Assembly (NCBI GenBank): GCA_963678705.1
Contig: OY783207.1
Coordinates: 21,736,001 to 21,800,000 of the forward strand
DNA length: 64,000 nucleotides
Source of the DNA: Panorpa germanica
Lineage: Eukaryota > Arthropoda > Insecta > Mecoptera > Panorpidae
Reading direction: 5' to 3'
Shown here: piece after piece, positions 19,001-58,000 of the stretch
Layout: each line of letters opens with the position of its first letter
Numbering within the stretch: position 1 is the first letter of the stretch
Position numbers and translations under genes: made by a program
The notes under the pieces: generated by a model
What the model was told of the DNA's origin: nothing
Seen by the model: the letters and a program-made list of their open reading frames with translations, nothing else
Databases searched by the model: none

Positions 19001-22000
19001 GAGTCAAGAGGAAATAGTAAAGATAGAGCGTCTATGCCTGTAATAGACATATGTGGAGAAGTGAAAACGAAGAGAGAAGGCAGGAAGGATAGTGAAAAGA
19101 TAATAGAGGGTTTGTCGAGAGGAGACAAGGAAGGCAAGAGGTGATAGATGAAGATACAGGCAATAAGGAAGGAGAAGCAGAAAACGGTGTGAATGAAGGA
19201 GGAGTAGGGGACATGAAGAGAGAGGATCATCTACTATTCGAAGTAGTAATAGTCTAGAATAGTTTAAGTTTAGTTTTAACTTTGAATTTATATGAAATGC
19301 ATTAAGAAATATAATAATGTAGATTGTAAAGCCGAAAGGCACACAATTAATAAATTAAATAAAAAAAAAAAATTACTATGCCCAATATGAGCATCATATT
19401 GAAATATAATAGGAAATGGAAAGTATGCCGAGTGAACTACAGATTAGTTATTTGAAGGTTAAGGATTAACTGTTGATGAGGAATTTAGCTGCCAAGTGCA
19501 GTAAATGCCATTACTTAGGCTTCCCACTGTGAGTGAAAGAATGAGACGGTGAGAATATTGCCGAGATAGCAATATTCTACGTAGTTGTACGTTCGATGGT
19601 TTACTTGCACCAAATAGACAAGTACAAAAATATATATTAAACAGTACACCTATCTAAAAACCTAATAAACAGTAAACCTAAATCAATAAAATACTGTATA
19701 ATATAAAATAGTTTATACAAAATATCGCAAGATATAAATATTCGAAGATTATGCATACTTGGGGCATGTCGTGAATATTTTGCTTCAGCACCATTTTTTC
19801 TGAATAGAAAGCGAAACCATGGACAGTAACAACATAAATTCTACAAATTCTTTTCGAGTTTTAAGAGAGTGTTCGTTAATTGTAGCGAGAGACAAGAATC
19901 TGCCTAAGCCCGAAATTCTCGAGACATTCTCATGTAGACACGTTAGCTTTTACATAGTTTGCAAAATGACTACGTAATAAAACTTTCCCGTAAGAGAATT
20001 TAATTTTATTACATATAGAATTCCAAGATAAATGAAGTTAAATATTGAACTTTACAATAAGAATATTTAGCTGGAGCTTTTGAAAGCTTAAATGAAGTTT
20101 ATTTCTGGATTCAATAGGAACAACGTAGAACAAATATAATAAGTAAATAGCTAGGAAAAGAGAGAGAGGGAGAGGGAGGGAGAGAGGTACGTAGGAACAG
20201 AATAGCTTGGAGTTCTTCGTGACGTTCAACACTGTAATATTATTTTCTTTAAATATTTACAATGCTGTTATAAATTGTTCAAACAATAAATGTTAAATAA
20301 ACATAAAGTTGGCAATGTCAGTCCCTAGTTTACCGACCATGACTCTACGGGGCTCTACGGGACTCTACGCGGTCTACGTCGAACGGATTTGATTGGATTG
20401 CAGTCGACATGACAACGTTAAACATTTGAAGATGTGTTTACGATAAGAGAAACAAATGTATGCATAAGTAATAAAAACATACCGGTTAACATTATTGCTG
20501 ATAGTGGCACTGATAACGACTTGTTTTATGATTGTTTGATAACAAAATCATTTATGATAATTTGTGTGAGGTGAATCAGAGCACACGAAACAAACAGAAA
20601 TAAACGCGTAGGTGTGAAAATGCAAATTATATAGGAAAAATTGTAACGCCGAGTCCATAGATGCGTGTTCGTGTACACATATATGATATTTGTACATAAA
20701 CACGAACGTGTTTGTTGTAATAGCGGTAAATAGCATACATTAAAGCTTCCGCCAGTAGGTTTGCAAATATGTTCGTGCACGCCAACTCATCCACGAACAA
20801 TCGAAAGAAAGCACAAATAATCAAACGTGCATGTATAGACCCGGAGTAATAGAATGTAGTTATATTTCTCCATCTATACCTCCTCACAATACTTCTTTTT
20901 ATTTCTTAGTCTACTTAGCTTTTTTTAGTAATTCATGTGTTTGAGAGAGTGGTAGCTTAATTTGTGTGTAGTAACACAATTTTGAAACAATTCTCTTTTT
21001 TGATTTCAGTTTTTTCTACCTCCACCCGTTAAACACAAAACTTATTTAAGTTTTACTTAAGTAATTTTAAACCAAATTAGATGAAAAAGAAAAATATCCA
21101 CAGGTCTGTATGGCTAGCGTCAAATGCACGGGATTTATCGTATCAACCGTGAAAGATTAGGATGTAGCCTTGACCATTACTGGGTTGCTGAGACAACAGC
21201 TGAGATCGGCTCTCGATCGAATATCTGAGATCGTGTTGCCCTTCGAAGCAACTCGTTGAAAATGCCATTTTTAATCTTTAAAACGATTTCTAACGATTAT
21301 GTAATTCTGAAAAGTGTTTTTAAAGAAGTAGTTCGTATTAAATTAAGACATAGCTGGACTATTAATGCTGGACGCTGATTGCTGTTTATTTATGTAATTT
21401 AGGTTATGTTATGTACATTCTCAAAAAAAACTGTATACATTTTAGAACATTAACGCATATTTTAGAACCAGGTATTAAAAAAAATCAGATCAAAGTATAT
21501 TAATTTGTATAACATATACAGTGCATTTTCAATGAATTCTTTAACAAATTCAGACAAAATATATAAAAAAAAAAGAAATTAATAACCGGTTCTTAATTTG
21601 AATTCGAATCTGTCTACTAAATTTGTATTAAAATTAAGAACATTTTTAACAGTGTACATACATAATCATAAACTTGTTAGATAGCGGTGTATTTCACATA
21701 TATGAGGTTACGAAATCACAAAAACTGCCCACACAGTAGGAGATCGTAGGTGATGATTAAATTGTAAAATGAAGTTAAAATACCTTATTCCAACACAGCG
21801 AAATATCTTGGCATGACGCTAGACGCGAAACTCAAGCGGAAGGAGCATGTTAAGATAAAAAGAGAAAAGCCTAATAATAAATTCAGGAAGAAGCATTGGC
21901 TTATGAGAAAACATTCTCAGCTTACAGTGCACAAAAAGCTGTTATTGTATAAGCAAATACTGAAACCCATATGGACTTATGGTATACAACTTTGGGATTG

Positions 22001-25000
22001 TACCAAGAAAACTATCTACGGAGCATTACAAATACGCCCTGGTACACCGAAGAAAGATGCTCATTATAGACGAAGAAGCCAGGAAGGCAGCAAGAAAACA
22101 TCTATTGCGACTGCAGAACCACCAGAATGAAGAAATTCTGTATCTACTTAATAACAGAGAGAATTTGCGCAGATTGAAGAGGACTAAGCCGGAAGACTTG
22201 ACTCTGTGATTCTGCTACTACAAACCGCATAAGCGTTTTTCGTAATGTTTAAAATTTTGGAACTAGTCAGTGGACTAAAACTGAACAAATCTGTTTAACT
22301 TTATATATAAATTACTTGATAAGCCACGCTTAGTTGTAATAATCTTTGTGAATAAAAAAAAAAAATGAAGTCATCATATAAGTTGGCCATCTCTTGAAAC
22401 ATTACGTAACCAAACTCTATATATTTGAGTACCAAATTTTATAGAACACTGAGTGAAGTTTTACTAGATTCAAAACACAAAAAGCAAAAATGAAACATCA
22501 ATGATCGATTACTGTTTGGCTTTAAATTCATATCAATATTGTTAAGTATGATGAATGTATCAAAATCTAAGAACAAAACACACATACACACGTGTACCAG
22601 CCAGACTTGCAATAACAGTCAATCAAATAAATTACATTTGAAAATATATTTATACAAAATGATTGATAGGAATTGTTCTCGCATCTGTACAGTGTGGTAA
22701 ATTATACAGTGTTTCCATTTCTCTACTACAGCATGTGGTTACATATTTGAAGCAATCCTACCACGTCTCTTTGTAAACATATACACTGAGTACATGCATT
22801 TATTTTACATTCATAGAAGATATTTTTGGCGCAGACCACTTTATATGTTAAAACGTGTGTACGTACCAGTAGTTCATCTGCCAAGAACATAAAACAATTT
22901 GCGGTTTCATTTTATGCACTTAAAATGGCGTTATCTTGGCATGGTGTACCCATGTGGGCATTAAGAGACAGGAATTTTATTTCGTAACGGAATTACTTGG
23001 TATATACTTAAACATTAAGGAAGCATCGAGGTCTATTAGTAATCATTACTAAATTGTTATGTACTTCATTTGTAGAACCGCTAGGCTCAGTGACGTACCT
23101 AGTGCTTTTGCCACCCGGGACGGTCTGCAATTTGCCGCCCTTTCTAAGTCAATCAAATAATGGTTTTTATAAATTAATAAACATAAATAAATAATTATAA
23201 TTGAAACAAACTATAGGCGAGGAACTTTTTTTACCATTAGATACTATATTTAATGTAGACTAGGGATGTAACGAATATTCACATTCGCATTCGCTAATTT
23301 GTTGCGAATTTAATGCTCTCAAAATTTATATTATTTCTAATTTCTTGTTCTATAGGTAATATTGCAAGATTTTGTAGTAATAAATCACTCATTGTAGAAC
23401 GTAGATAATTTTGAATCAACTTCAATTTGGACAAGCTTCTTTCGCAACTAGCAACACTGACAGCAATTGTAAAGCACGGACTAGTACATAAAACTTCTAC
23501 TAGACGAGGAAAAATACTTAAAATCATATATGGCAGAAATTCATAGAAATTTAATAGTTTACTTATGAAGTGAACAAATTGTTTTTTCTATCGGACTAAA
23601 AAGAAGGTTGGAAGTAGTAAAATGTAGATTTATAATAGGTCATACAAATCTTGCTAATACATACTAATTCAAAAGAGAACCCTCTAACGGTAAAGCATAT
23701 TATTTTTCAATGCTTAAGGTACTCGTCGCACAGACAAGAATTTAATATACCGGAGGAAAATCTAAAAAACCTTATTCAGTTTATAAATAAAACCAATTAA
23801 ATCTCTTTATTTTAAGTGTGTTTATAAGTTGTAAATTATGTATTGTAAAGTTTATAAATGTACGAGTATATATTGTTTTAAGTGCTAATAACTTATGAAG
23901 GTTGATGCACTCAAATAGGTATTTAAAAAAAGTTGTTTATTACAACTAAAACTAAATATAAAAAATGCCGTCCCAAAATATATTCCGCCCGGTTTGGAGA
24001 TACCCCGCCCCTCCTTCTAGGTACGCCGCTGAGTAGACTAAGTCTCTCCACACTCGTAAAAGGTAAAGATTTGACTAGATACAATTGATTTCGTGTGGAA
24101 ATTAAAAAGAAAGTTATTTAAAGTTAAAGTTTGAAGACACTAAGTAGTTTTGCTAAGGAAAACTTACATTACAATCGTTTACTACTATCTTTCAAATGAC
24201 ACCATACACAATTTCAGAGTGATTCATGGTTAGCCTTGATTTGACATATATTTTTATTAAACGTGTTGTGTGTTTTTCGATACAACGGAAAAAGAACAAT
24301 ATAGATCCGTTTATTCAAGATTTTCACTTTTGGATGGAAAAACGAAAACGAAAAATGTCTTGGTTCACTCACTCTCCATTTATACAAGGTCAGAGAATAT
24401 AAATGAATCATAAAACATGTGGCACAGACGTGAGGACTCGTGGGTGGAGGCCATCGGGCATGCCCCATAAAACCGCCTGCTACGATAAAAACACCATACT
24501 ACTTTCTTTAAATAACAATTTATAAAAAGAATAACATCTTCTTTGAAGATCCATTTCTTTGGAAAGAACTGCTCTATGTTTAGCGTACAAGGTATATTCC
24601 AAAAGTAACCAACCATATTTTTTGTGCGTAAACGAATAGAAGCGTGGGAGACGATGGGGGTTATTTGGTGGATGTACGCAGACAATCTTAATGTGATTGC
24701 TTGAATTTTTTCCGCCTGCATAAGCTTTATATTGCTATCAGTTACAAAAACTCACGATAATTCATTAATACAATATCTGGGACAATACACACGTGACAGC
24801 TACCCTTCAAGATGAAATACAGATTACCAAAAGACGCAATCCTCTAGGTGTTTACTTGCACAACATAGACATACAGTGGTCGGCGCTCGAACTGTTACCA
24901 ATTTCACGCTGCTGTAGCAACCAAACGGCTAAGGACAGCGGGCTCATTTTTTGACAAGCGTTAGTCTGTTATGTTGTTTACAAGCCTACAGAAGCATATC

Positions 25001-34000: not shown

Positions 34001-37000
34001 TGTTCAAATTCTAAAGTCTTTGTTCCCTATTCAGACTTAATCCATTCCGAAGCTTTCTATTATTACCAAATGACATTTCTATTAAATTCGCAATTAAGTA
34101 CTACAGAATAATAAAGACTTGAGATACGTTTTATACCACGTCAAGAGTTGAACTAAATTGTAAATGATCAACATGCTGCCGTTTTGTCACACATGTACAT
34201 GACCTCGTGTTGGCAGTGATCGTAAAACTGAATTTCGAGCCTAGTACGCGCATATCTAAATAATCAAGCGAATTGGCTGAGCCACGTGCATAGGGCGTTT
34301 TAGTTATCGCAAGTAGCTTTTGTTGCTTGCGATCTCTTCCGGATGATTTTTCAATAGTTATTTAACTGTGGATTTTTGTTCGAGCCGAACATAACTGTAG
34401 TTTAACCAAGCAAAATATCAGGATTATATTTTACATTAGTTAACTATGGTCGGTCTTTGAAAAAACTAGAATTAGGAAACCCATTTTTTAGGTTAAACTT
34501 CTTATATTCTATAACTAAAGTTTAACTGACTATAAAGGACGAGTTATTTGCGATGCATGTTTAGTTTCCAAGCTGCAAACATGTCCGTGATTTTGATGCA
34601 TATTGCATATAGTATACGACTGGCATAAAACGTTTTTACATCAGTGTTTTTATTTATAAAAAGTTCAATAGCTTTACAAGTAACATCAAAATTACTTTAA
34701 TGGATTATAAAATAAAATAATGGTAAGCGTAGGAGTACGTTTTTACGTAGCACGTGTAAAGCAGAAAACAACCCCATCTCTCGAAGCCTATTTGAATTAT
34801 TACTAGACGTAACACACCGTACTCAGCGCTGGCGATATTTATACAACATTATTTATGCACCTCCATCATTAATAATGCAAGATTTAATATAAAGTGGGAG
34901 ACGCGGGGTGTTAGAGGTCGTAGGGGTCCTCGTTTTCGTGAATTCATGTCGCGTACACATCTATAAATAACACGTGGAGCTTAGATATGAATTTAATAAA
35001 ATATTCAGTGAAACACAGTACCACACATGCTGTTCCGTTTCAATATCCGCCATCTTGAATTCAACGTTGAAATCTTTATTATTGTTATTATCCTCGGAAT
35101 GTATTGAAATGCTACAGCGATCTGCCAAAGAAAAGCGCTGCAACAAATGCCATGGATAGATGGTTCATTCTTTTTTTAGTTCAGAAATGTTAGGAATTTT
35201 CTATGGAAGGAATTCTTTTAGTACGTGACCATACAAATATTTTATTTATTTCTTTTATATTTGAGCTATGAAAACTATACACAGTGAAATTGTTTTCCTA
35301 CTTTTCTAAAGTTGTTAGATCAATTTGTTTAAAAGTTTGTTCAATGTTCTAAAACTTTGTCAAGCTGCGGGTGGTTCTGTGTGTAACTCTTTGAGACAAC
35401 TTCACTGAAGGCAACAAATCTGCTAATGACAGAGTAGATAGTATGAACGCTCAGTAAGAAATTTTACTGACAATTTGATCGTACTGTTACTGACAAGTGT
35501 TGCCATAGATGGGGATACTAACTCGCAATACTGTCAGTATTCGGAATACTGTCAATATTCCTGTCATCACCAACTTTAATGATAAGGATAGCTATATATA
35601 GTTAACTTTATTAATGAACGTAGGTATTATTATTGTTTCTGAATATTTATTAGTTGAATTTAATGAATTATAAGCACAATTATTATATCTTCTTATATCT
35701 AAACTTATTTTAATGGGCTTGTGTTCTACGTCTTAATTTCAACATATTGATAAAGTTCGTTACTGGAACCTCAAATGTCCAATTATTTTTTAATAACTTC
35801 TTATATGTTAGGAGAAATTAACAATTATAAGTCATTTTGTTCCTTTAATTATTAAAGAGATTTAACGTAATAGAACATTCCAAGACATGTGACACGTTAG
35901 CTAAGTTGATATTTATTTTATACAACAGTGCATATTCAACACAGATCTTTTATCCATAGAGAAAATAACTAACCTACCATTAATAGTACAGACATGTTAC
36001 GTCATAAACATGGCCGACATCTGTTGCGCTAAAACTACAATTCTAATTTTTAATTACTATATCTCCGTCAAAATTTAGATATTTAATACAATAAAAACGC
36101 CAATATATATTTATTAACCAATTTGATCAAATTAACCAAATTGTATTATCAATTTCAATTAACAATTGAAAAATCGACCACTAACAAATGAGTATACACA
36201 CTCATTTGTTTGAAAATGGACCACTAGCTTATAACTTTTAAACATTGGCATTGTATATTATGAACAATTGTGAGAAACTGAGTTTGGTTACAACACTTTC
36301 ATGACAAAAATTCATAGATTGTAGTAAATATGATTTCGAATGGAATCGAAATTGTACACTGATATGTTTTAGTTGGCAATAAAGTTGGGTGTTACCGTTA
36401 CAGAATATATCAGGATGGCACAGGACCGAGCGATGAGTGTGACCTTTCTAACAATATCTTTACTTTATCAAATTTTACGTGTGCTGAATATTAAATCGTT
36501 TATAATTCCCTCTAAGATTATTAACTACTTAAATATACGCATTTTGTTTACGCAATCATTGACAGTCTGTTAAAAATGAACTCTAGTTTATTAATTTACG
36601 AATAAATTACATTTGTCTGCAGCGAACACGACCACGTCTCCATCGCGAACTCCAGCAGCGCTGGTGTCTGAGAGAGAATAAATATTCCTCATTTTCTGTC
36701 AACTTTCAAATTCATCTCGACAAATATTTATATTAGATTCCATTTTGTACTTGATTGAATTTATTTCCAGAATGAAGCTAATGTAAGAAAGTCAGCTACG
36801 CATTTCTGAGTTTGTGCTTTTGTGCTTTTCTGACGTACGGACTTTAAAGTTCTCAAGCGAAGTTGGTCAAAGTATGGGTGTTTGTAGAAAGTGTGGGAAG
36901 TGGGCAACAGTGACAACAAGACTCAGTTCAATTCAGTATAAATTTGACACAGCGTCACAACATTTGGTAAAAGAATATCCGTACAAGTTGTAACGCTCGG

Positions 37001-40000: not shown

Positions 40001-43000
40001 ATTTTCCGAGTAAAAAGAACAATTTTTTTCCGACCAGTCTTTCAAAAATTTAGTGCGTTGATCTCTATTGTGGAGGCTCCTTTCTTGTGGATGCCCCGGG
40101 GCAGTAGCTCCGCCTGCCCTCCCCTCAAAACTGGGCCTGTACCAATCGTCCAAAGACTCTGGGTGAGCTGAAGAGCAATATTCGTGTTGCTACTGCCAAC
40201 ATAGACACAGACATACTGGACAAAGTGGATATTTTTTGTCATAAATTTATGTAACATTTATGCTATATTATATATTTATGCATTTATTATATAGAATGGG
40301 AAACGAGGAGAAAGGAAACAGATACAGGGCAAATAGCGAGAGAAAGGATGTGCAGGATGTGCAGGATGTGCAGGGTGTGCGAAACGGAGATAGAAACATT
40401 GGAGCACATTAAGTTTTCATGTGAGAAAAAGGTATAAAGCAAAAAGAATATTGGGCAGTTATTAAAGGGAGGCAGTGAAGGGAAGAGGTGGATGGCGAAG
40501 ACAGAGAAAAGGAACGAGGAAAGAGAAGGAATTGCAGAGTAGAAACAGGAGGGAGAGTATCATCAGGAGCGAAGTAGTAGTAGTATTGTTTTTATTTTTA
40601 TAAGGATATATATATTTGGAAGTAGTGAGAATGTTTATATATAATAAGGATCAAAAATGAATTAATAAGCACAATGATATGTAATTTAATAAGTTAAGGC
40701 AGAAGAATGTAGTGCCCAATGACAAAAACATTAAAAATAAATAATAATAATATAATATTTATGCTATATGAGTTTTCAACCTTTCGAAGCAGTATAGCCC
40801 CTTAAGAAAAGCTTTTACTAAATCATCGCTCCTTCTTAATTACACAATAAAACAACTTAATATTCACAGTTACATAGAAAATTAAATTTGAAATTTCAGT
40901 AAAACTTTATTATAACATTTCTTTTTCCTTAAATGAATCAGCCCATTGTGCCATTGTTAAAACTCTTTTGTTTTGTTTTAAAAGTTTAATATTCCAATTA
41001 ATGTTTTAAAATGATAAAATAAAAAACAAAAGAACATAAATTGCTGTTACTCTGCTTCTATACGAGAAGTAGTTCAAACGAACATTGAGCATAACATAAG
41101 AGTGAGTGAGATAGAAGTATCTTGTCATATGGCTAAGTTTAATGCCACCAGGAGGCAGGCATTGTGCCAGTTGGAAAAACAGATGATACATTTAACGGCA
41201 TTAATAAAAAAACAACAAATGAGGAAACTTTATGTAAATACCGGTTATGTTTTTATTATTGGACAGTTTAATGTGGCAATGAAACACACAAAAATGTTCC
41301 TATTTTTATATAAGTAGCGGTTGCCCCGTTGCATAGCAACGTGTGTAATATTTGATTAAAAATTATTAACTTGGACATACTGCTCACGTAGAAAATGTAA
41401 CGCTTTAGTAAGCTAGCAAGTGTGGAACGGCATTTTTAGGCTTTTTAAATTACTAATTTTTCAAAAACATTGCTGTGACCTTAAAAATGATGATTTTAAA
41501 GTAGTTCTAGTGACAATCGTAGGCAAAAGTATAGTTGCATAAGTACAAATTTTACATACACTCTGTATATGATAATATTATAATTTTTGGAGTTTCTACT
41601 CAATATAAGCTGTTATGTACAAATGCAGACTAAATACTATTACACTGTTGAGAAATATGGCAACGCAACCACTGTATTACTCACACATATTAGATATTCG
41701 CTGTATATTCATATATAGTAACTACCCGGATACCGAATAAATATTTTTACTTCGTTTTTCAGCTGCTTAAATTTTGTAATTAAAATTAAGACACTTATAT
41801 TACCATCTTATTAAAATTTTATCAAATTCTCTATGAAAATATTTTTACTAGCGAGCTATTAGGGAAAGTTACGAACAGGATCAAGCCAGAAGTCCCGTGC
41901 GGTACAAATGATAAGTCTCTTAGATACCTTTCTTTATGAAACAAAATCTGTTCACATTAAGAAAAAGCACTTGCCCCCCAGTCATATTGAATAACCTACA
42001 ACTTCCACAAGCAGACGCATTAAAATACTTAGGTATGCATTTGGACAGACGTAGACAGACGACTAACTTGGAGAACATACATCTGGAACAAACGGGTGCA
42101 GTTAGAAAGTAAACGTAGGGACATGTATTGGCTCCTCGGCTGGAAGTCGCAGCTATCCACCTATAACAAACTACTTTTTAACAAGACACCACTAAAACCC
42201 ATATGGACATGTGGGTACAGTGATGTATTTGGAGTCTGGAGGCACTGGGGCAACGAAGGAGCGGAAGCCCCTAATTATTTTCCTAATTAGGTAAAAATGC
42301 GAAAAAAAAGTCTGTTTGGAAAAAAACTGACCCGTCGAAATTTGAATATTTCTTTTGTTCTCTATTGTGGAGGCCACGGGCAGTAGCCCCGCCTGCCCTC
42401 CTCAAATCCAGGACTGGACATAGAGCTATGGGGTAATGCAAGTACATTCAACATAAAAATCCTTCAACGTTTCCAAAATAAACTGGTTAAACAAATCATT
42501 AACTTTCCCAGATATGCTTTTTTTTTTAATATAGTTTCTCGGGCTTCCTAGGCACGTAGCCTTTTATCGCTCATAATATTGTTCTGATTCTTCTTATACG
42601 TTATATCCAGACAACAAGAATGATCTATTCATGGTTACTGCAGTTATAAATTTCGGTTTCTCAATCAAAAAGGGGGTGTTAACAGTAAGGGTCTGCGAAG
42701 TCTGTAGCATCGCCCTTTGGAGTCGATTTCTTGCCATTGCTGTATTTTTACATTGCCACAGAATGTGGTCAGGATCTGCCTCCTCTTCACCACATTCACA
42801 TATAGAGTTTGGAATGATTTTGTTTCCTGCTAGATGTTTTGGAGCTCCAGTATGATTCATTCTTAGTCTTGAGGTCATTGTTATTAATCTTCTTGGCCAT
42901 GTTAGTTTGGCAAACCATGGCTTACGTTTCAGTATTGGTTGTATTTTATAAAATTCTCTACCTTTATCAGAATTATCCCACTTGTCTTGCCAATTCTTCA

Positions 43001-46000
43001 TTTCATTTTTTTCTAATTCAGCTTTCATATCTGATTTTATAAAATATGAAATATAGTTATCACAGGAAGCAGCTAGCTCGGCCATCCCAGATATGTTTCA
43101 AACTGGCTTATACACCAAGATCTACGTACGCCTTACGTTAAGGACGAAATTAAAGTCATCAGCAAGAAATATCTACGAAAATTACGAAATCATCCAATAA
43201 ACTTATGAACAACATCATAGAAGTTATTTGCTTAGTTGCATGTTAAGCTGAAGAGTACTTTATCAGTGGATGTAAAACTCACATGTCAGTTTTATATATC
43301 AACTAAATTATGTAAATTATGAATTGAAATAATAATAATAAAAAAAACCTTCTTTCGCCTCATTCAATTTCAATTCAATTGTATCTAGTCGCAGCTATCC
43401 GGGGGCCCATTTGGCTCTGAGATCTGAGCACACAATTCGTCATCCGAGACGAAATATATATTTTATACCAGAAAATTAATGTACAATATTTATTACATAG
43501 ACTGTACAGTGTACACGAATGAATACTCGTATGATATTATAGTGTTCTTTTTTTGAACATTACAAACAGCAGATGAAACAGCGCCCCCTATTATGTTGTT
43601 GTTTCAGCACCTCCACCATTTTATTCTTGAACTTTGTGTATAAAAAAATTCCACAAAGTGAAATCTAATTATCTTTGAACAGCTTCTCCACGTAGTTTTT
43701 TACCGACTAAATGAAATTGTTTTCTTGTAATTTTGTTATGGTAAATGTATTACTTAAGTTTTAAGATAATGGGTCGAGCCTAGCCCGGGGTGGGACGCAA
43801 AGCTTTGGGTTGCTTGTTGTTGATAAGTTAGGAAACTTCATTTTAAACAGAAATTCATAAACTGTATTTTAAAAGTTAATATATTATCCATTTTAAAACC
43901 CAACCCACCCAGATTGTTTTATTACAAGTATTATGAAACAGTGGAAGTTCTGTGTGCTTTATGGTTTAATACTTTTAGAGTACTAACACATGCGCGTTTA
44001 AAAGTACTCGTATACAATATAGAACGAGTAAACCCAGGTACAATAAACAGCCGTTATTAAGTACGTGCATTTTGAAAATGTTACCCGAAGTATACACTCG
44101 TAACAACCAGAGACGGGTTTGAGGAGAAGGTTTTGTTGCTATATTATAATACGTAATATAGGATAATGTACCAGGTGTATGTTTGTTGCTGAAATTCGTA
44201 TGATAGAATGAAAACGGCTTTATCAATGTTTCTGAAAATTTCCTATTTCGTAGAGAAAAAAATTCAAAGACTTTTGGCGTCCTCGAATTTTTCCTTGAAT
44301 TCTGGGAATTGTATCTAATCGAATAAATAGTTGCGCATACATTTTATATAGAACCATTCACACGACGTTTGTCCTGCAAAGAAAACGTACACAGCTAAAC
44401 ACGTTTCTTTTCAAGCAAATCGAATGAACTTTAACGTATTCAGCGTACAGTGGCGTATAGTATTATTCGATATCTTTCACACGGCGTGACTTTTATCGAA
44501 TAGTAGCCGAACAAGTGTTTAGTGCTGAAGTATCATTTGCAAGTGTTTGCAAAAATAAAAACAATTGTATGAGAATACAGAAAAAAGTATTTTAACAAAT
44601 TTGCAAAACGTATTGGGTATACTGTTATGACTCTACAGTCTGCTCTGTTTGAAAGAGAAAAGGTATTCTCAGTTTCGTCAAATTTTTTATCAAAAAAGAA
44701 AGAACATATTTGTGTGATTTTACCCTTTAAATGTAAAAAAACAATTATTTGCAGTTTTTAAATTTAATTTAAGCATAAGTAATACTGTAATAAAGCCTCA
44801 TTCCCACTCACTGTTTTGATATTTAATTTACTGTTTTTATTTAATATTGTAATCAAGATTTCAGGTTTTCGTTTAAGAATTCCTTTTCACATTTGTGTTT
44901 TTTACTTTAAGTTTAGTTAATTTAGTTGGTGAGTATGCATCGTTCGTAATATAAATTTTGACAGTTCGACAAAATTGTATGTGAAATAATTAAAATTGCT
45001 ATTTTTAATAACAATTAGTAATTGAAATTGTTTTCATTCTATATTTTTCGAACACTGGCATTAAATTTCTTTTAAAAATAAATCCTACTGCATTTTGACA
45101 GATTGTCACATTTTGGAGGTTGTAATATAATATAGTTTTTCTTAATTTAATATTTTTAATTTAAGACATTGGACCTTGTAAGGTTATAAAAGAACTACGA
45201 AAACTTAAAAAATAAATTAAATTACAAATGATACTGTTAATGACTACGCGTAGTGCCATATACTAAACAATTTAAATTAGATACAAAATACAAAATCAAA
45301 TTAAAACAGTGAGTGGAAATGATACTAAAGAATATGTTTTGTTACATACATTTTTTATTTTTGACTAATTTTGATAAGCCTCATTTTACACATAAAAAGA
45401 TATAAATATTTTGAACATTATTATTTTATTTATTATGAGAAACATAATATATTATTTCTTGAATGGAAATAAACATAAGTTAAAAAATTAATGTAAAAAA
45501 TGGTATGTTCCTCGGGAGATTAGATTTGAAGGTTATCTTTCACAGGGACAATAATAAATTGGGAAAAAGCATCCTGTAACTAGGAGGAACACTTTGACCT
45601 CGCTTCTATTCACAAGAGACACACGCGCCGACCCTGAGGGGGTTGCAAGCCATGGAGGGTATTTTTGCACTTCGCAACCTATAGATTGTATTTAGAGATT
45701 TCTTATCTGAAATGGGGAAGAAAATTATTACACGTGTCTGTTTGTTAAGGGTTATCTCCCTTGGGGAGGCACCGGGTATAAAAGTTTATTTCTATAAAAA
45801 ATATAAAGAAATAATAATAACAAAGCAGGGAAGCTCAACCTAAAGATCTGGACTAAAACGTCTTCAGATTAATAATGATTGATTTTTACTTTCAATAGAA
45901 AATAGTTAATGAGCATCTAAAACATTTACTCCTTAAAAGACTTCTTAAGATTTTATAATCCTTAGAAGGTATACTTAAGAAGATTTTATGATTACATTAA

Positions 46001-49000
46001 GCGGGGGTAAGGCAAATCGATACAAAAGCATATTTTCGATAATGTTTTTTGACGACACAGTTATTATATAATTATTTCTATAATTACTACATGATAAAAT
46101 AACATTTGAAGAATACTTTATAAAACTTTCATAAATGAATATCAAGAAATGAGTCATTGACAGCGAATCTCCGCAGACGTCACAAAAAAAAGTTTCATTG
46201 TGGTGTTCCTGATAACTCATCACTGGATTATTTGAAATAAAAAAATCAAAATGATTTCATCAGAATATAAGTTTCTGCAGGTAACCCTGTCGTATTTTTT
46301 ATTGATTTTTCAATTTTTTACAGCACTTAGAAGTTAAAATACCGATTTTAACCAGACCGGTGAGGTGAAGACTTAAAACTCTATATCTCCAAAAATTTTA
46401 CTCCAATCGACTTTTTTTTTATATATAGTTTCTTCCTAAGCACGTAGCCTTTTATCGCCCCTAATATTGTTCTGCTTCTTCTTATACGTTATATCCAGAC
46501 AACAAGAATGATCTATTCATGGCTACTGCAGTTATAAATTTCGGTTAACTATAAGGGGGTGCTAACTCCAATCGACTTTAAATTCTCACAATAAACTTAA
46601 TATGTTGTATATTAATATAAATAAAGTAAAAAAAAAATGAAATCTTACTCCTCCCCCAATTAGCCCATAATGCATAAAAAGTAGGTCACAAGATTGATAT
46701 TAGATTACATTTATGTAACAGGTAAATGTTGTTATGTTAGATAAAGATTAAATACACGTAACTGTAATTGTGTTTTACTAAAGGCCCCGGGCCCTTTCCT
46801 AACTTTCGTTCTATAGTAATGTGACATAAACCTCTCCTTCTTTTAATCAAATTACATATGATTTTTTGAAAAATGAAGGTTCTCTTTCATATTATTATTT
46901 ACAATTTTCACAATTTTATGTATTCGTATAATTTAATTCATTTATTCGCTACAAATATTCTATTTTTTATGTGTCGATTTGAAACTGTGGAACGCCTGTT
47001 GTGTCGACTGATTTGACCTACTGCGGCGAGTCGCAATTACTTACCCTAGCCCCTTTTGAACTGGATGAAAGTGGTTTGCAAGCCCTGTACTAAAACCTAC
47101 AAAACGAATGACATTTTATGACTATACTATGAATCTATATTTATGAATTAACGTCGCAATAGAATTGACGTATAAACTTCTTGAGATCTTCACGGTCTAT
47201 GGATGACGTCATCGTTATTCAAACAAGGCTGAAGAGTGAGGACTAATTTAATAACAAAGAAACGAATTGATGGGAATGGGTGTTTGAATAAGTAAGGGGG
47301 TGGACAGTTTTAATTTTGTAAATGGTGAATAAAGTACATTAAAGAACTTCTTAGGTACTCGCACTTTGCATTAATACTTTTAGTTTGTTGACAATACTTT
47401 TAGTTTGTTGAAGTTTTTTGTGTGCATTTCAAATAGCGCTTTCATTAGACAGCGAGCAGGATTTTTGGTTCTATTTTTAGGTTATGTGGAAAAATGTTTA
47501 AAGCTTATAAAAACCTTCCATTTAATTTCTCTTTTATATTCTGTCGAATATAAAGTCTATCGAAGTACTACACAATCCAAATATATTTGATCTCAAATTC
47601 GTTTATATGATTTTGCTTAGGGCCCATATTTGGTTGAGTGGACCTGAATCCAGAATTCATTATAATAAGGTTAGAAAGCTGCCTTAAATTTATCGAGCAA
47701 TGGCATACGTAGAAAGTTAGACGGAGTGCGCAACACTTTAAATTTCATTGTATCTAGTATACTCTTATAAAACTTTTACAAAGTAAGATAAATATCCCTC
47801 CTTTGTCTTTACCTGTGGAAGTTACCTAATGATTGCAGGTTGGAAAAAATAGACTTTTCTATATCATTAACAAAACATAGATTCTAAATATTTTTTTTAT
47901 TTTGGAAATAATAGTGTTACAGAAAAATGTTCGGATTTGAAAATGGTACCCATTCAAAAAATAATAGGTTTAAGTAAGTAAATAATACGATACCTATTAA
48001 GGATCATCAGTTATGGCATAACTAAAGTTTAAGCTGGAAATCATTTTTTTAATTATATTTTAACAAAGAGTAAGGTTTTAACCTAAAATGTAAGTATCAG
48101 CCTGTGAAATATAAAGAAATAAAATTATTTATATTAAATACAATAATTTATATTAAATATAAATAGTAATTATTACAAAATAATGTACGAGTATATTACT
48201 GACGCATAACGCATGATTTCATAAGTTCAAAGTTACATTTATGGTTAAAACCTTAAATTTTACCTTAAATGGAGCTTTAATTAAAGGTAAAATTTTTAGA
48301 TAGTTAACTATTTAAAAATTTTACCTAACCGAGATATTTTATTGGTTAAGCGGCAGTTATCACTTATGCTCAATTGAAACAAAAAAAACAGCTGAGCTGA
48401 GAATTAATTTTAACAAAATTATTAATCAAAGTTTATAATAAAATTAAAGTTAACAAAGACTTGAATAATTCATCCTAAATAAATAAAAATAATTTTATGT
48501 GAAGTTACTCATTCCCTGTTTGACTACTTCTAGCTCCCGATAACAAAACTAGCTAGTCAAACATTGTTAAGTATTGAGGGAATATTTAACCCATTGTTAA
48601 AATTTTGGAAATATTCCGTTACCTTTAATATTTCATCAATACAAGCAGGTAAAGTCCATGAAGATTAATACAGTAAGCAGGTATGTGGTCGGAGAGCTGA
48701 CAGAAGTTATTTTTAATAAACAACAAAATATAGAAATTTCGTTGTTGAGATTTTATAGCAAATACCTCATCAACGAAACAATGCATTCATTTGGTCTTTA
48801 GATTTTTTATCGAATTAATGCAAATATTGAAATATGAAATGATCATTTAGTGTAAACACAATAGTGTGTCTCAAGTTATAGTAAATTACATCTTTGCGAG
48901 TAAATACAAGTTAGACATCTTTAGTAGCTCGTGGTTCCAATTTGGCGTCTTTATTAAGCATTATTTCCACTCCTGTTTTAATTTTGTATTTACTTTAAAT

Positions 49001-52000
49001 TATTTAGCATATAGGTATGTGTATAGGTGTAGGTCTCTGTATCATTTTTAATTTAGAATTTGATTTTTATTTTCTTTGTTTTTTTCCAAGGTCCTGTTTT
49101 GTGACGTTTCTATCTCTATTGCCAGGGCAGGATTTAAAGGAGCGGAGGCGTCGAATAAAAGAAACAATTTTTTCTGTCAAGTCTTTCAAAAATTTATTGC
49201 TTTTATCTCTATTGTGAGGGCCCCTCTCTTCTGTAGCCCCGTCTGCCCTCCCTCAAATCTGGGTCTGACTATTGCACTTCAATTATAGTTCGCATCAACT
49301 TTATCTTCATTTGTATTCCGACAGGTGGAGTGGTTTCACCATTTGTAGCCGATAAAATAGACATTTTATATGAACGACTATGAGAGAAACTGAACTGTAC
49401 TCTTTCAGTACAAAAAAATCATTCTCAAAAAATGCATTCTCAATATGATGGCAAAGTGGCTCCAAAATGTTTACTGGAATGTAGTTTCAAGATTAATTTT
49501 GATAGATTGTCAAAATACAGTAGGTTTTATTTCTAAAAGAAGTTTAATGTCATTTTATCAAAAATAAAGAAAACAGCAATTTTAAGTATTCCATATTTAA
49601 TTTAATTCAACTATCGAACTGTCAAAATTTATATTACTACCACCAACTAAATGAACTAAGCTCGAATATGACAAGGAATGCCTATTCTGAAAACCTGAAA
49701 TTTAGATTAAATTATTAGATAAAAAACAGTAAATTAAATATCAAAACAGTGTGGGAATGAGGCTTTATAGGGCGGTATTTAGATAAAGAGCGTCAAAATT
49801 TAGAAAGGGGCGCAATTTTTATGGTGAATCGTTGTAGTTAAAGCGGAGAGGCGCCAAATTATCACCTCGCATCTGCAATATATTTCTCTCGGTGCAGCAC
49901 TGGTTACCAATTGTTACCAATATAGCTAGAGAGTTCAGCTACTGTATTGAAAATGATTCACCTTTATAAATATTAAGGTAGTTATTTTGACATGAGCAAT
50001 GTTGCCATATCAACCAATACATTTAAACAATTTTCTTTATAAGTAAAAAAAGACAAGGGCGAAAAAACATTCTTTGAGGAAATGTCTTGAAAATGGGTAG
50101 TATTTGAAATTGAATACTTGAAAATTTGTTGAAGAAATTACCTTTTCTTAGCTCTCGCTCTAACAAATGAAAAGGAGAAATATAAAAACATATTCGCGGT
50201 ATGTTGGGTTAGGGAACAGCTCGCCCCACAATTTGTGCCTACAGACTAAAAGCGGCCCTGTGTCGTTCGTTTTATGATTTTTATGTACTAGTCCAGCTAC
50301 AAAGTTCAACTGATAGTCAGTCTAATACCAGCACTCAAACTGTGACATAGTGATAGAATCGTTAGGCTTTGTTTATCCAAAATTGTGTTTGTCTTCATTT
50401 AAACTATCGTGCTTATTACAACAAAATTAGAAGGTACCGTAAAATACATTGTTTATAGGTTATGCAGTTTGTTGTTCCTTGTCAATCATTTGTGTAGTGT
50501 CTTCTTAATGTGATAAAGAAATAAAGCAAATTTTGTTCAAAAGCAAAATGACAAAAGACATAGTTTTATTTAGGAACGCATAGAAAACAAAACAATGGTC
50601 TCACGTTGATACAATAGAAAGTGTTAGTTGGTTTATTTAATATTATCATTTTAAAATAATTTCAACAAATGTAAATTTAAAAATGAAATTCTGCCTTAGT
50701 AAATTCATTTATTTATATTCATATATTACAATTTTTGGTATATTAGCAAGCGAACACGCGCTATATATTATACATTTGCAGGAATTATTTTGTTTACTAA
50801 AGCTGCGTACACATAGGTGCAACTGAAACATGCGACATCAAACATTCAACACTCGTGATTCTATTGTTCAGGTTTTAACGAGTTAGCAGAGGCCTTGTTA
50901 AATAACTGAGTTTTATTACTTTTTTGTAAAATTTTTTTTGTTCTACAACAGGTTGAAGGAATTCGTTCGAAATATGAAAACTTCCTACGTATTAAATTGC
51001 ATGTCGCACTAGTGTGGGACGCTGTACAACTTTTTACAACAAATGTTGAATGTCGCATATTTAAGTTGCACGTGTGTGTACGGGTCTTAACAACACAACC
51101 AAATCAACAACTCATATATAGAATTACAACGTACAACTGAACAAATGTATTACAAATACAAAATGAAATGAAGTATTAAATGGGCTTGTGTCCTCATTTT
51201 TTAGTGGTCGATTTTTCAATTGTTGATTGAAATTGATGTTAATAAATGTGTATTGTGTGTATTATGTGTGTGTCTATTTTATTAAATATCTAAATATTGA
51301 CGGAGATATAGCAATTAAAAGTTTGAATTATAGTTTTAGCGCTAGAAATGGTCGGCCATATTTGTATTACGTTAAATGTATTTTAACGTCAGTTATTTGT
51401 TGAGTAGGTCAGTGCTGTGGTAATGTTCTGTAGCTGTTGGTATTTAAATAATCAAGTTAAGTCAAAGAATAATAACTTTTTATTTTATTTAACCCTGCTA
51501 AGGCAGACATAATATTTAAATTTTATTATTCCTTAAAATAGCTGTAAATAATATTTGATATTTTGATATATAAATACATATAGCAGAGATTTATGAGGAT
51601 TGCGATATCACATGCACTTGGAATGTGTACAACGTTGAATCCCTTTAATAATTAAAAACACAAAATGACTTTTTTAATTGTTAATATCTCCTAACCTATA
51701 AAGAGTTATTAAAAAATAATTGAACATTTGAGGTTCTAGTAACCCACTTTATCAATATATAGTACACTTTTATAAAAATTAAGACATAGGACACAATCCC
51801 ATTAAACCGGGTTTGTTTCTATAAACGATTCAAACTAATTTACAACCAGGTAAGTATACGTCACAGCAAGAACACCAACGCGTCGACTCTTGACTTCATT
51901 ACAAACTTTATTTGTCATTTAGAACATAACAACAAAATGTTTCAAAAAATCTGATTTTGTATCTTTTAATCTCATTTTTATTTTAATATCAAAATAAAGT

Positions 52001-55000
52001 TTGACATAAATTTCGAGCGTATTATCTTTCATTTCGAGATTTACCCATTTTTCACCTGAAATAATTGTAGTTTTAATGTTTTTGTGTATATCTAATAAAT
52101 GCTGAACTATAAACTACAGCACTTTACTAATATTCTGAATCTAATTATACTGTAATCTTTTTGTAATATACTCGTATTTATCTTTCTTTTATAGATGGAG
52201 TTCCAACGTTTAAAACTACAGTCTTCGGATGGCATTCTATTCGATATGGATGCACATCTTTTTGACTGCTCCAAACACATTCAGAGTGAAGTGAGAAAAT
52301 TAGTGCCGGTTGAAAACCTGATTGGTTTTCGTCTTCAGTTCTCAGAGATTGATTCAGATATTTTAAAAAAGGTATTTACTATTTATCCCACGCCACCATA
52401 AAGTTATGTCGTAGTTAAATATTTAAATTTGTACAGGTGATATCGTGGAGCTACCACGCAAATGTCTACCATTTACGTAAAAATTTAGAAAACGTTGAAG
52501 CAGCAGATTTAAGCCAATGGGAAACAGAGTTCTTTAAACTTGATTTCAAGACTTTGCAGAGTTTGTTGGAGGCAGCAGAATATTTAGAAATCGACGACTT
52601 ATCAACTAAGGTATCCAAAGGAATTGAAAACCGTAGGCGTGTGTTTGAAGAGCATAAGAAAAAAGTACTAGCAAATAAAACTATACACTATGCAGAAATT
52701 TTAAATATAAAAAGGATAAGGGAAGATACTGATTTCATTTTCATTTTTTGTTTTGTACTTTTGGGTATAGCTTTAACATGCCTTCTTTATCGAATATTTT
52801 ATGCAGATTTTTAGTGCATCTTTTTTAATTTTTTGATATACTCGTATATACCTTATATATTTATGTACATAACTTCCTAGACCTATTATCTTAGCTGAAA
52901 GTAACCTATGTGGTGTTAGATATGGTTAAAATAACAAAATAAGACGTATCAGTAGTAATCTATATCGGAAAGTTTATTTATTAGCTAAGGTAACATTATG
53001 TAATATTTTTCTTGCGAAGAATTCAAAGCATTTTTCTTTTAGTAAAGTTATGGTTATAAATAATAATTGAATATACAAAATTGATAAACAAAATTGAACT
53101 AAGTTTTCAAGTTGTTATATATACTTATATCTTAGGTGAACAGTGAGCAATAAACTGATTCTATTGTTTAATACGAGTATATTATATCAGGTGATTAAAA
53201 ATAATTATGTTGATTTTACTTGAATTATAAGATGATGATTTCTTTTCTAATAAAATAAATATAACAATAATAGCAAGATTTTTAATACATAATTTTATTT
53301 CATTTAAGTGTAATATACATAATATTGTTAATATTGTTAGTGTACATATATTTTTTTTAATTTTTAATTTGTGTACATATAATTATATATCATATTGAGG
53401 GCCTTAATCTGAAATTTTTTCTCTGACTTCATGCGTTATAGTGTGATATTTATTTGTTTATTATTACCAACTAAAATTGTGTTGAAAATGCAACTTAAGG
53501 AGGGAGCAATTAACGTCAAATTGATAGAAAAAAAGATATTTTCGATAATGTTTCTTGACGACACAGATAATATAGAATTATTTCTATAATTACTACATGA
53601 TAAAATAACATTTAAAGAATACTTTGTGAAATTTTCATAAATAAATTCAAAAAATGAGGCATTGACAGCAAATCTCCGTAGACGTCACAGAAAAAAGTTT
53701 CGTTGCGGTGTCACTCATAACTCATCACTGGATTATTTGAAATCAAAAAACCAAAATGATTTCATTAGCTGATAAATTTGTGCAAGTAACGCTGTCGAGT
53801 ATTTTTTAAATTGGTTTTTCAATTATTTACAGCACTTAGAAGTCTAAATACCAATATTTTGTTATTTTAAAATACGTTGAAATTAAAAAAAAAGAAAGTC
53901 GACATGGTTACTTCGGCATTTATGTAAAGAAAGAGTGTGCAAAATTTCAAAAGGATCGGTGCAATAAATTTTGAGCTAGAGAGAACATCGACTCTGAAAA
54001 AACTAAGTGTGAGAAGAAAGCGTTTAAAAGTTTCAAAGGAAGACGAAATCAGACAAGAGAGATGAAGCCTTAAAACTCTATATCTCTGACAGTTTTACTC
54101 CAATTGACTTCAAATTGGTACACAATAAACTTAATCTATTCTACATTAATATAAAATTTATTTACCAATGTTAACAAACAAATGCATATCATAGTAGTCC
54201 AACTTATGACGCATGACTTCAGAGACTAGAGTTATAAATTAAGACACTTAGCCTATTTAATTTCAGATGTGAAATAAAAATTTTAAATGATTCTTAACAA
54301 TAGTCATTCATAACATAGAATAAAATTATTTAAGTAAAAATGTACAGCATCTGACTTCGCCTTGAACTCCCTACAGTGGAGAAATTAAGTTTCTATGAAC
54401 ATTACTAAAATATTTAAATAATTAAATAAAACAACAATTAAATAAGGTGTAGAATGTAAGGATAGACATTACATTAAAGGCTTCTATAAGCTTTCGTAGA
54501 GTTTTGCATCTGTAATTACCTTGGTTTTTTAAATGATTATTTTATTCAATAACATTACGAAAAAATTCATTAAAAAATTCACATTTCTAAAATTTAAGAT
54601 ATTTTTCATAACTCAAATTAAATTGTATTATCCTGTGATAAAAAAGGATAATTGTACTGGTCCTACTTCAAATGTAAATATAATTCTAAATTAAATTAAT
54701 GGTGCAGGGAATGACTACGCATATTCCCATATGCAATACAATTTAAATTAAATACAAAAAGGGTGAAAGAAATGAGTGGAAATACTACTTTACATATTTA
54801 TCTTACTCTTTGTGTTCCCCGCAGCAGTAAGTCTGAGAAGGGATTAAGGCGCCTTAATTTACTGCAAATCACTTGGGATATTTTTACGAAGCAAACGCTA
54901 CGGTAGCAGTCGGAGTAGACGAGGTAATGCACTAATTAGCAAATAGCAGCTCGCTCAGCTTCATTAATATCAGATGTCACAAAAAGCAAATTCAAACAAT

Positions 55001-58000
55001 TTGAATTTTCTCGTTTGCTTTTTCTGTTTATAGAAATAATTGAGTTTTATCATCAGTCGCCCTGCGTTTTACATTTTACGCTCTACTCTTATAGAATTAC
55101 ATTTTGCGCTGTGCGTTTTGATATTCAAAGCAAAATGATGAAGGAAAAAATATGATTAAAAAAATAGGAACATGTAATTTGATTTTCTGGGGCGCCTAGA
55201 TTGAAATAATGTACGGACGGTACGATGTGATTTTTAATTTATTTTTCTCGTGATGGAATGTAATTAGCTTTACGAATTGCTACCCCCAGTGGCCACCCTA
55301 GTGCCTACCCCTGCCCCCGCTTTTGCCTTTACTTTGTACCACAGTGTTTCACCCTGCTACGGCGTGCCATTCCCCCCGTCCCCAATGTGCTGTTGTTGGT
55401 TTTGTTAATTCAATATAACCGCAAAAGTCTGCGTTTGTAATTAACGGTAATTCCAGTTTAATTTTCAAATGTTCAATCATCTGATTCGTTTATTTTATTT
55501 TAATAATTCATTTTTTTAATTACCATGGAATTAATCTTTCATGTTCATTACAAATTAATGTAATTATTATGTACTCATTTTAAATGAAGGTAATCTTTTT
55601 TCATTTTTATTAGCTGGATCAGATTATATACATTTGAAGATAGATGTTACACAGTAAAATTTTACGTAAAAAATTGTATGTTTTGTGCCCTACTTTATTG
55701 CAATATCTAACGTCGACTTTTCAATTGTTGATTGAAATTGATGTTAATAAATGTGTATTGACGTGTCTATTTTATTAAATATCTAAATGTTGACGGAGAT
55801 ATAGCAATTAAAAATTCGAATTATAGTTTTAGCGCTGTGAGATGGTCGGCCATTTGTATGACGTGAAATGCATTTATACGTCACTTATTTGTGAAGTAAG
55901 TCAGTGCTGTGATAATGTTTTGTAGCTGTTGGTAGTCGAAATAATCAAGTCAAGTCAAAGAATAATAAGTTTTTATTTTATTTAACCCTGCTAAGGCAGA
56001 CATAATATTTAAATTTGAGTGTTTCTTGAAATAGCTGTAAATAATATTTGATATTTTGATATATAAATACATATAGCAGAGATTTATGAGCTGTAAGGTT
56101 GATAACCTGTAAACTTGGCAGAGCTCTGTTGTATAAAAGAGATAGCAACTAGCGGTTGTGATGTCACATGCATTTGGAATCTCTTAAATAATTAGTTGAA
56201 TCCCTTTAATAATTAAAGAGGAAATATTCCCTAAAATATAAGGAGGTATTGAGAAATAATTGAACATTTGAGGCTCTAGTAACCCACTTTATCAATATAT
56301 AGTACACTTTTATAGAAATTAAGACATAGGACACAAGCCCATTAAAGGACTATCACATCAGTCACTAAAGTTGAAGGATAACATATAGGTGGCGCCACTA
56401 TTGACAAATCCATATGATTTTTAGATAGTATCAATCTTCCTTCTATAAATGTTAAAATTTCATGATATTCCGACCATTAGTCTTATATATAACACTTGTC
56501 AAGCCATTGCTTTGCTTCAACGGTATTTTCTTTCCCATTAGAAAGCAATGCTTTATCAGCAATACTGTTAATAATAGAGTCACTTATATGACATCCAACG
56601 AATTTAATGACTGATTTGATAACTACGTCATACAAATTTAATGATTTTTTAACCCCCTGTCCACATTGTTACGTTCTGTCACACATTGCGTATCCCGTCC
56701 CCCCTGTTGTGACAACACATATTTATGTCACATCTTGTCACACTTTGGAGACCCTCTCCCCACTGGTTTGTGTATGGGCAAAGATAGCATATGTACCGGC
56801 ATTTAAAAAAGAAGTGCAAAACTAAGGTAACATTTTTCTAAAAATATAACACATTTAGAACACTCTAGTACTCTGCTTGCTGTGTAGATAACTTGTAGTA
56901 AAATAATAAACAATTTTTAACGCAGTTATTATTGTAAACATAACCTAACCGAATTTTGTTATATGCAAATTACACCTAGGTTGATGTTCAGTCCGCCTCT
57001 GATGCTTAAATGGGCAATTTGAGACCATATAAATACGAGTTTCTATTTGTAAAAGCATCCATAAGACACAAAGTTTATATCAGTCAAAGAATACAACGAA
57101 TGGAGACGCAGCTGATGATTCTAGTACATAAATAAATCAGGTTGATTGCGTCGAGTTCTAAATGCTCACACTGGGGACCACTGAGACACATTCTACAGCG
57201 CTGAATGAGGTTGTTGTAAGGATCGAGACACGAACTTACTTTAAGCACTGGATTTATGTTTAAAGGTTACTGTATAAATAAAAGTTTACTTACATAGTTG
57301 TACTTCAGGTCAGGGTGCATGTAGTCGACTCCTGCAAATAAAAAAACCATTTGTGTTATTGGAAGATGATGATGGTTATTGCAACAATATCAGTTACAAA
57401 GCGTAGTGATTCTAACTCACGACGTGAAAAGTAGCCAGAAGAAAAATCAACATAGGAACTCTGCTGCAAACCCTGATACGTTAGTGCTCTCTACGATTTG
57501 AGCTATTGGTTACAGATGAATACAAAACGAACGATTTCTATAGCTATTGTACACAAGGGAGGTCTTTTATGTAAAATATATTTAACTGGTACAAGGCATC
57601 ATAGCAATGGTATTGAATATTATGAGATTTGTTTGTATTCATTTAATCATTTAATTTTTCTTTGTCTAACTTAATCTTTCTAAATTGCCTCTTCTATACT
57701 ATAGAAAAACCTGGACAAACTTTCTTCATGGAAGAACGTTGGTATTTACTTTACAAATACAGAACAATGAATGAACAAACCATCTTAAATTCTAGTTAAT
57801 ATATACTCAGTCCTACATTAGTTTTCAGCTAGATTTAATAGGTTTATTTTTATTACTTTTGAGAATGCGTTTAGTTAATTTCGGTAAGCACATTCCCTCA
57901 CGTATTCAATCAGTAGTTTAAAGTTTCTCATATTTTAATTGCTTTAACCTTTGACTTGGTTTCCGTTCACAATATACACTTAGTAATCACATTATTTTAC

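Follow-up and report, generated by a model that had tools for sequence, protein, structure and literature searches.

The question raised by this locus is whether a relative of SKP1 has acquired a membrane anchor and, if so, whether it still serves as an SCF adaptor. SKP1, known as a soluble protein and among the most conserved of eukaryotic adaptors, normally helps to mark other proteins for destruction. In the window, by which is meant the whole stretch of 64,000 nucleotides of Panorpa germanica DNA that was analysed, a SKP1-like gene on the forward strand begins with an ATG at 52195 and ends with a TAG at 52812-52814; its exons (52195-52371 and 52437-52814) encode 184 residues when joined. 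The best explanation, with a probability of roughly one half, is that the two exons form a strongly diverged paralogue of SKP1 encoding a tail-anchored protein, with a role independent of ordinary SCF assembly. If true, an essential hub would have been redirected after duplication, with the POZ core kept, the SCF surfaces lost and a membrane anchor gained; if the tail is run-on translation, the locus is merely an ordinary decaying paralogue. The features of the gene are as follows:

52195..52371, + strand: coding exon 1 (residues 1-59), carrying the N-terminal half of the POZ fold of SKP1 (Pfam)
52372..52436, + strand: putative intron of 65 nt, GT-AG, phase 0, between ILKK and VISW (splice consensus, restored SKP1 alignment)
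52437..52634, + strand: SKP1-like part of coding exon 2, residues 60-125 (tblastn, phmmer)
52635..52733, + strand: charged linker, residues 126-158, not detectably related to the C-terminal helices of SKP1
52734..52790, + strand: predicted transmembrane segment, residues 159-177 (hydropathy and a biological hydrophobicity scale)
52791..52814, + strand: C-terminal tail RIFYADF (7 residues) and stop codon (translation)
53149..53154, + strand: possible poly(A) signal, the first AATAAA 3' of the stop codon (motif match alone)

Descent of the encoded protein from SKP1 is supported by several lines of sequence comparison. Residues 5-125 match SKP1 in a phmmer search of the PDB sequence set (E 7.5e-10). 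No other family is matched strongly: of the 33 chains listed with E values no higher than 1, all but one are SKP1 or SKP1-like proteins of plants. A tblastn search of the window with human SKP1, in a form consistent with the text of the PDB set, links two stretches at a joint E of 2.3e-07. Local alignment with the human protein scores 135, against a mean of 30 for shuffled sequences and with none of 2000 shuffles reaching 135, and 40 of 119 aligned residues are identical (about 34%). Both proteins have an N-terminal POZ fold and share the blocks E/D-F-x-K-x-D and AA-x-YL-x-I. Weaker similarity to the Pfam families BTB (E 0.0046) and DUF5805 (E 0.17) falls under their cut-offs, and an NCBIfam search gave no match. 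Elongin C belongs to the same POZ superfamily and is without helices 7-8. It is not matched at E up to 1 when the SKP1-like protein alone is the phmmer query, and is matched only by a profile that includes two ordinary SKP1s. No second SKP1 copy was found in the 64-kb window, other matches having E values of 2.0 or worse.

The Pfam evidence also bears on the gene model. The joined exons match Skp1_POZ (PF03931) at E 7.7e-06, with 26.4 bits against a cut-off of 21.9, whereas exon 1 alone reaches 16.9 bits (E 0.0072) and exon 2 alone has no match; the 65-nt splice is supported because only the joined exons pass the cut-off. Its donor reads AAG/GTATTT at 52371/52372 and its acceptor TTTGTACAG/GTG at 52436/52437, with a poor pyrimidine tract (11/20). 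A scan of alternative introns of 45-200 nt, with GTA or GTG donors at 52301-52420 and AG acceptors at 52381-52520, found two that preserve the frame of exon 2, of 65 nt and 134 nt; the SKP1 alignment is intact only with the former, while the latter cuts residues out of the conserved part. The junction at 52371/52437 and the 184-residue frame given in the preliminary description are thus present in the sequence, and its alignment of the N-terminal 115 or so residues to SKP1 is borne out by four SKP1 blocks found in order. The gene would be spliced and expressed in this form. Directly 5' of the ATG stands TCTTTCTTTTATAG, which may mean that a 5' leader is spliced to an exon starting with this ATG, or may be fortuitous.

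When exon 2 alone was folded as a single sequence, the model had a mean pLDDT of 73.5 and a pTM of 0.41, with one helix (H53-123) that starts where the SKP1 part ends and continues to the C-terminus. In a Foldseek search with this model the best 50 of 107 matches were SKP1 or ASK1, as judged by titles and chain names; the best E was 0.13, and none of the matches listed reached E 0.001.

The feature that sets the protein apart lies beyond the SKP1-like part. Residues 159-177 form the hydrophobic peak, with a mean Kyte-Doolittle value of 2.75, and are followed by residues 178-184, so that the 19-residue segment and 7-residue tail noted earlier can be read directly from the translation. On the biological hydrophobicity scale this segment sums to -4.17 or -4.35, depending on which of two values is used for Val; among segments that start before residue 130, the best has a sum of 15.18, to be compared with the -4.17 of residues 159-177. 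The presence of a C-terminal hydrophobic segment is therefore supported as far as hydropathy scales can tell, and by the same scales the layout is that of a tail-anchored protein, with a single C-terminal hydrophobic segment, no other, and a tail of 7 residues. Tail-anchored membrane proteins likewise have one hydrophobic stretch, placed at their very C-terminal end and followed by a short tail. We know of no tail-anchored protein that carries a SKP1 domain.

How often such a tail might arise by chance was estimated in several ways. A 19-residue hydropathy of at least 2.74 within the last 45 residues occurs in 2 of the 192 frames of the window (stop-to-stop, at least 59 codons, the SKP1-like frame included), and one of at least 2.0 in 14 of 192. 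On the biological scale, 1 of the other 191 frames matches the tail in strength, and 4 of 191 have a sum of 0 or less. The last 26 codons of the gene are 55% T. Among T-rich open stretches of 26 codons, which overlap each other, 27 of 1606 are as hydrophobic without the locus itself and 35 of 1621 with it; for any composition, and again without the locus, the equally hydrophobic open stretches of this length number 37 and come from about four places. When the bases of the T-rich tract were shuffled, 202 of the 5204 shuffles that stayed open were as hydrophobic. An open frame of 59 codons was present at 471 of 18058 sampled positions (2.6%). A hydrophobic tail by chance is thus unlikely, but not impossible, and the chance figures taken together with the T-rich tract therefore make the tail suggestive rather than proven.

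The main rival follows from these same figures. The locus might be a decaying or recently dead SKP1 copy that has lost its true C-terminus, so that the frame runs by chance into T-rich DNA. Such a history would agree with the end of the SKP1 match at residue 125, with the T-rich end of the tail, and with third-position G+C. This stands at 0.37-0.39 in the SKP1 part but at 0.19 in residues 126-184, less than the total G+C of the DNA on either side (0.23-0.27), a fall to be expected of a tail that is recent or unselected. Repeats on both sides of the gene (51179-51806 and 53517-53858), neither of which covers the exons, also fit with decay. However, the 125 SKP1-related codons are free of stops and frameshifts despite only about a third of residues being shared with human SKP1, and such an intact frame across diverged codons argues for past selection. 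Under decay, moreover, the open tail and its hydrophobicity (matched by a single other frame) would both need luck. A decaying copy is considered unlikely, though it is the alternative that carries most weight. The preferred reading is still that of a SKP1 paralogue that has probably gained a tail anchor.

Alternatively, the SKP1 paralogue may be functional but have a main transcript without the hydrophobic tail. There is a good donor within exon 2 (TAAG/GTATCC, 52611), from which splicing could run to an acceptor, TACTTTTGGGTATAG, at 52770 or to a farther exon, perhaps beyond the end of the window. Against this, the homology of exon 2 runs beyond the donor (SKGIEN in the SKP1-like protein, CKTVAN in SKP1), and the splice from 52611 to 52770 terminates immediately (CTT TAA). 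Nor did tblastn find in the window a farther exon encoding a true SKP1 C-terminus: SKP1 residues 109-163 gave eight chance-level matches (E 1.6 to 8.2), none of them on the + strand downstream of the gene, and full-length SKP1 gave one chance-level match downstream (55574-55651, E 2.5), to a part already present in exon 2. Skipping of the tail in the main transcript is quite improbable on these grounds.

If the tail is translated, the remaining question is whether the protein would act as an SCF adaptor at a membrane, which was the first of two possibilities raised in the preliminary description. One paper describes SKP1 as a POZ fold followed by C-terminal helices 7-8 that bind the F-box, and states that the PxPN motif of strand B3 is involved in contact with Cul1 (PMC1257465); another counts helices 5-6 in the F-box interface as well (H5-H8; PMC12680543). 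In Dictyostelium Skp1, F97 and L101 are reported to belong to an ordered homodimer surface, and the dimer interface is overlapped by the F-box and Cul1 sites (PMC12101541). SKP1 has the C-terminal Skp1 domain (PF01466), whereas in the SKP1-like protein Pfam does not list it at E up to 10, the PxPN and dimer-surface residues are changed and a hydrophobic C-terminal segment is added. Two ordinary SKP1s served as positive controls for PF01466: SkpA of Drosophila scored 101.2 bits and ASK1 of Arabidopsis 107.4 bits. The PxPN motif aligns to QFSE (residues 48-51), and the two Dictyostelium residues, F97 and L101 (human F101 and L105), correspond to Q100 and E104. Human N108 is replaced by E107, and Y109 is kept as Y108; Asn108 and Tyr109 of human SKP1 presumably also contact CUL1. 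Human I127, a third hydrophobic residue of the dimer surface, falls outside the part aligned with human SKP1, and in the alignment with Dictyostelium Skp1 its position faces a gap.

The linker was also considered as a possible remnant of the SKP1 C-terminus. Global MAFFT alignments had suggested homology of residues 126-158 with that region, and this was rejected by shuffling, in which 1897 of 2000 shuffles reached the alignment score of 16, and by the Pfam searches with their positive controls.

An SCF adaptor held at a membrane and still linking CUL1 to F-box proteins would be compatible with SKP1 descent and with the retained equivalent of human Y109, and the stretch of helices 5-6, counted in the F-box interface by the paper cited above, is partly retained. 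This reading is nevertheless disfavoured, because PF01466 is missing and the Cul1-contact and dimer-surface residues reported for SKP1 have been replaced by polar or charged ones, and it is regarded as highly improbable. The other possibility raised at the outset, that of a POZ-fold protein whose role is new, is in better agreement with the evidence than the anchored adaptor. The predicted protein is more likely to be a POZ domain of SKP1 origin carried on a membrane stalk and to have ceased to act as an ordinary SCF adaptor.

Very hydrophobic tail anchors tend to be directed to the endoplasmic reticulum (ER) in preference to mitochondria. In the proposed arrangement, a SKP1-type POZ domain (residues 1-125), presumably cytosolic, would be joined by a charged helical linker (126-158) to one transmembrane helix near the C-terminus (159-177), beyond which only a very short tail extends. 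Insertion into the membrane would be post-translational, and the strong hydrophobicity of the segment makes the ER a more likely destination than mitochondria. Outside ordinary SCF assembly, the protein would most likely serve as a membrane-bound scaffold or binding partner. The fuller account, in which a SKP1 paralogue was rebuilt as a tail-anchored protein by loss of its SCF interfaces and replacement of its F-box helices with a membrane stalk, and took on a scaffold role, is put forward tentatively.

Lineage-specific expansion offers a further comparison. Nematode SKR and plant ASK paralogues are not known to depart from the two-ended adaptor plan. Going by the titles of papers, Skp1 reportedly has a structural role in the nematode synaptonemal complex. 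By analogy with that role, and with the 20 and 23 SKP1-related genes reported for two nematodes (PMC12680543), the gene might instead encode a protein that derives from SKP1, evolves fast and acts in the germline or another restricted set of tissues, its membrane attachment being incidental; this is the least probable of the readings considered. The nematode SKR and plant ASK genes are lineage-specific SKP1 copies too (PMC12680543, PMC1257465). No membrane-anchored SKP1, or SKR or ASK paralogue with a C-terminal membrane anchor, was among the matches listed in searches of the openly licensed literature, which is weak evidence of absence. In viral contigs, 43 pattern matches to exon 2 and 58 matches in a profile search for SKP1-like relatives yielded none that was confirmed, and the same was true of 74 profile matches in prokaryotic contigs; these negatives are weak because the collections are viral and prokaryotic, rather than insect genomes. 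One repeat motif was sought in viral contigs, without a match.

The SKP1-like gene lies antisense within an intron of about 40 kb (about 57.3 kb to 17.4 kb) of a PC2-like gene. A tblastn search with human PCSK2 found minus-strand stretches at 59534-59394, 17395-17321, 13966-13865 and 12976-12776, and further ones at 4514-4284, 4030-3932 and 3851-3789; a missing short piece starts near 57329 according to a pattern scan. In Pfam, two of the PCSK2-like frames matched nothing with an E of 0.1 or lower. The minus-strand stretches between 3789 and 59534 are likely, as judged by comparison with PCSK2, to be exons of a gene for a PC2-type proprotein convertase, known in flies as amontillado. Searches of the window with Rfam at the gathering threshold and with a tRNA scan were empty. 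Two frames, at 21768-22127 (+) and 42597-43097 (-), resemble the ends of non-LTR retrotransposon reverse transcriptases, though neither matches a Pfam family at an E of 0.1 or lower. The repeat downstream of the gene, at 53517-53858, has a copy at 46013-46349. The upstream repeat belongs to a family of about 630 bases found at five places in the window (51179-51806, 6559-7199, 9678-10281, 55712-56346 and, as reversed pieces, within 35709-36207), which are 69-89% alike across aligned pieces. A remnant of a hAT transposase dimerisation region is present at 23297-23587 on the minus strand (Pfam PF05699, E 1.9e-05).
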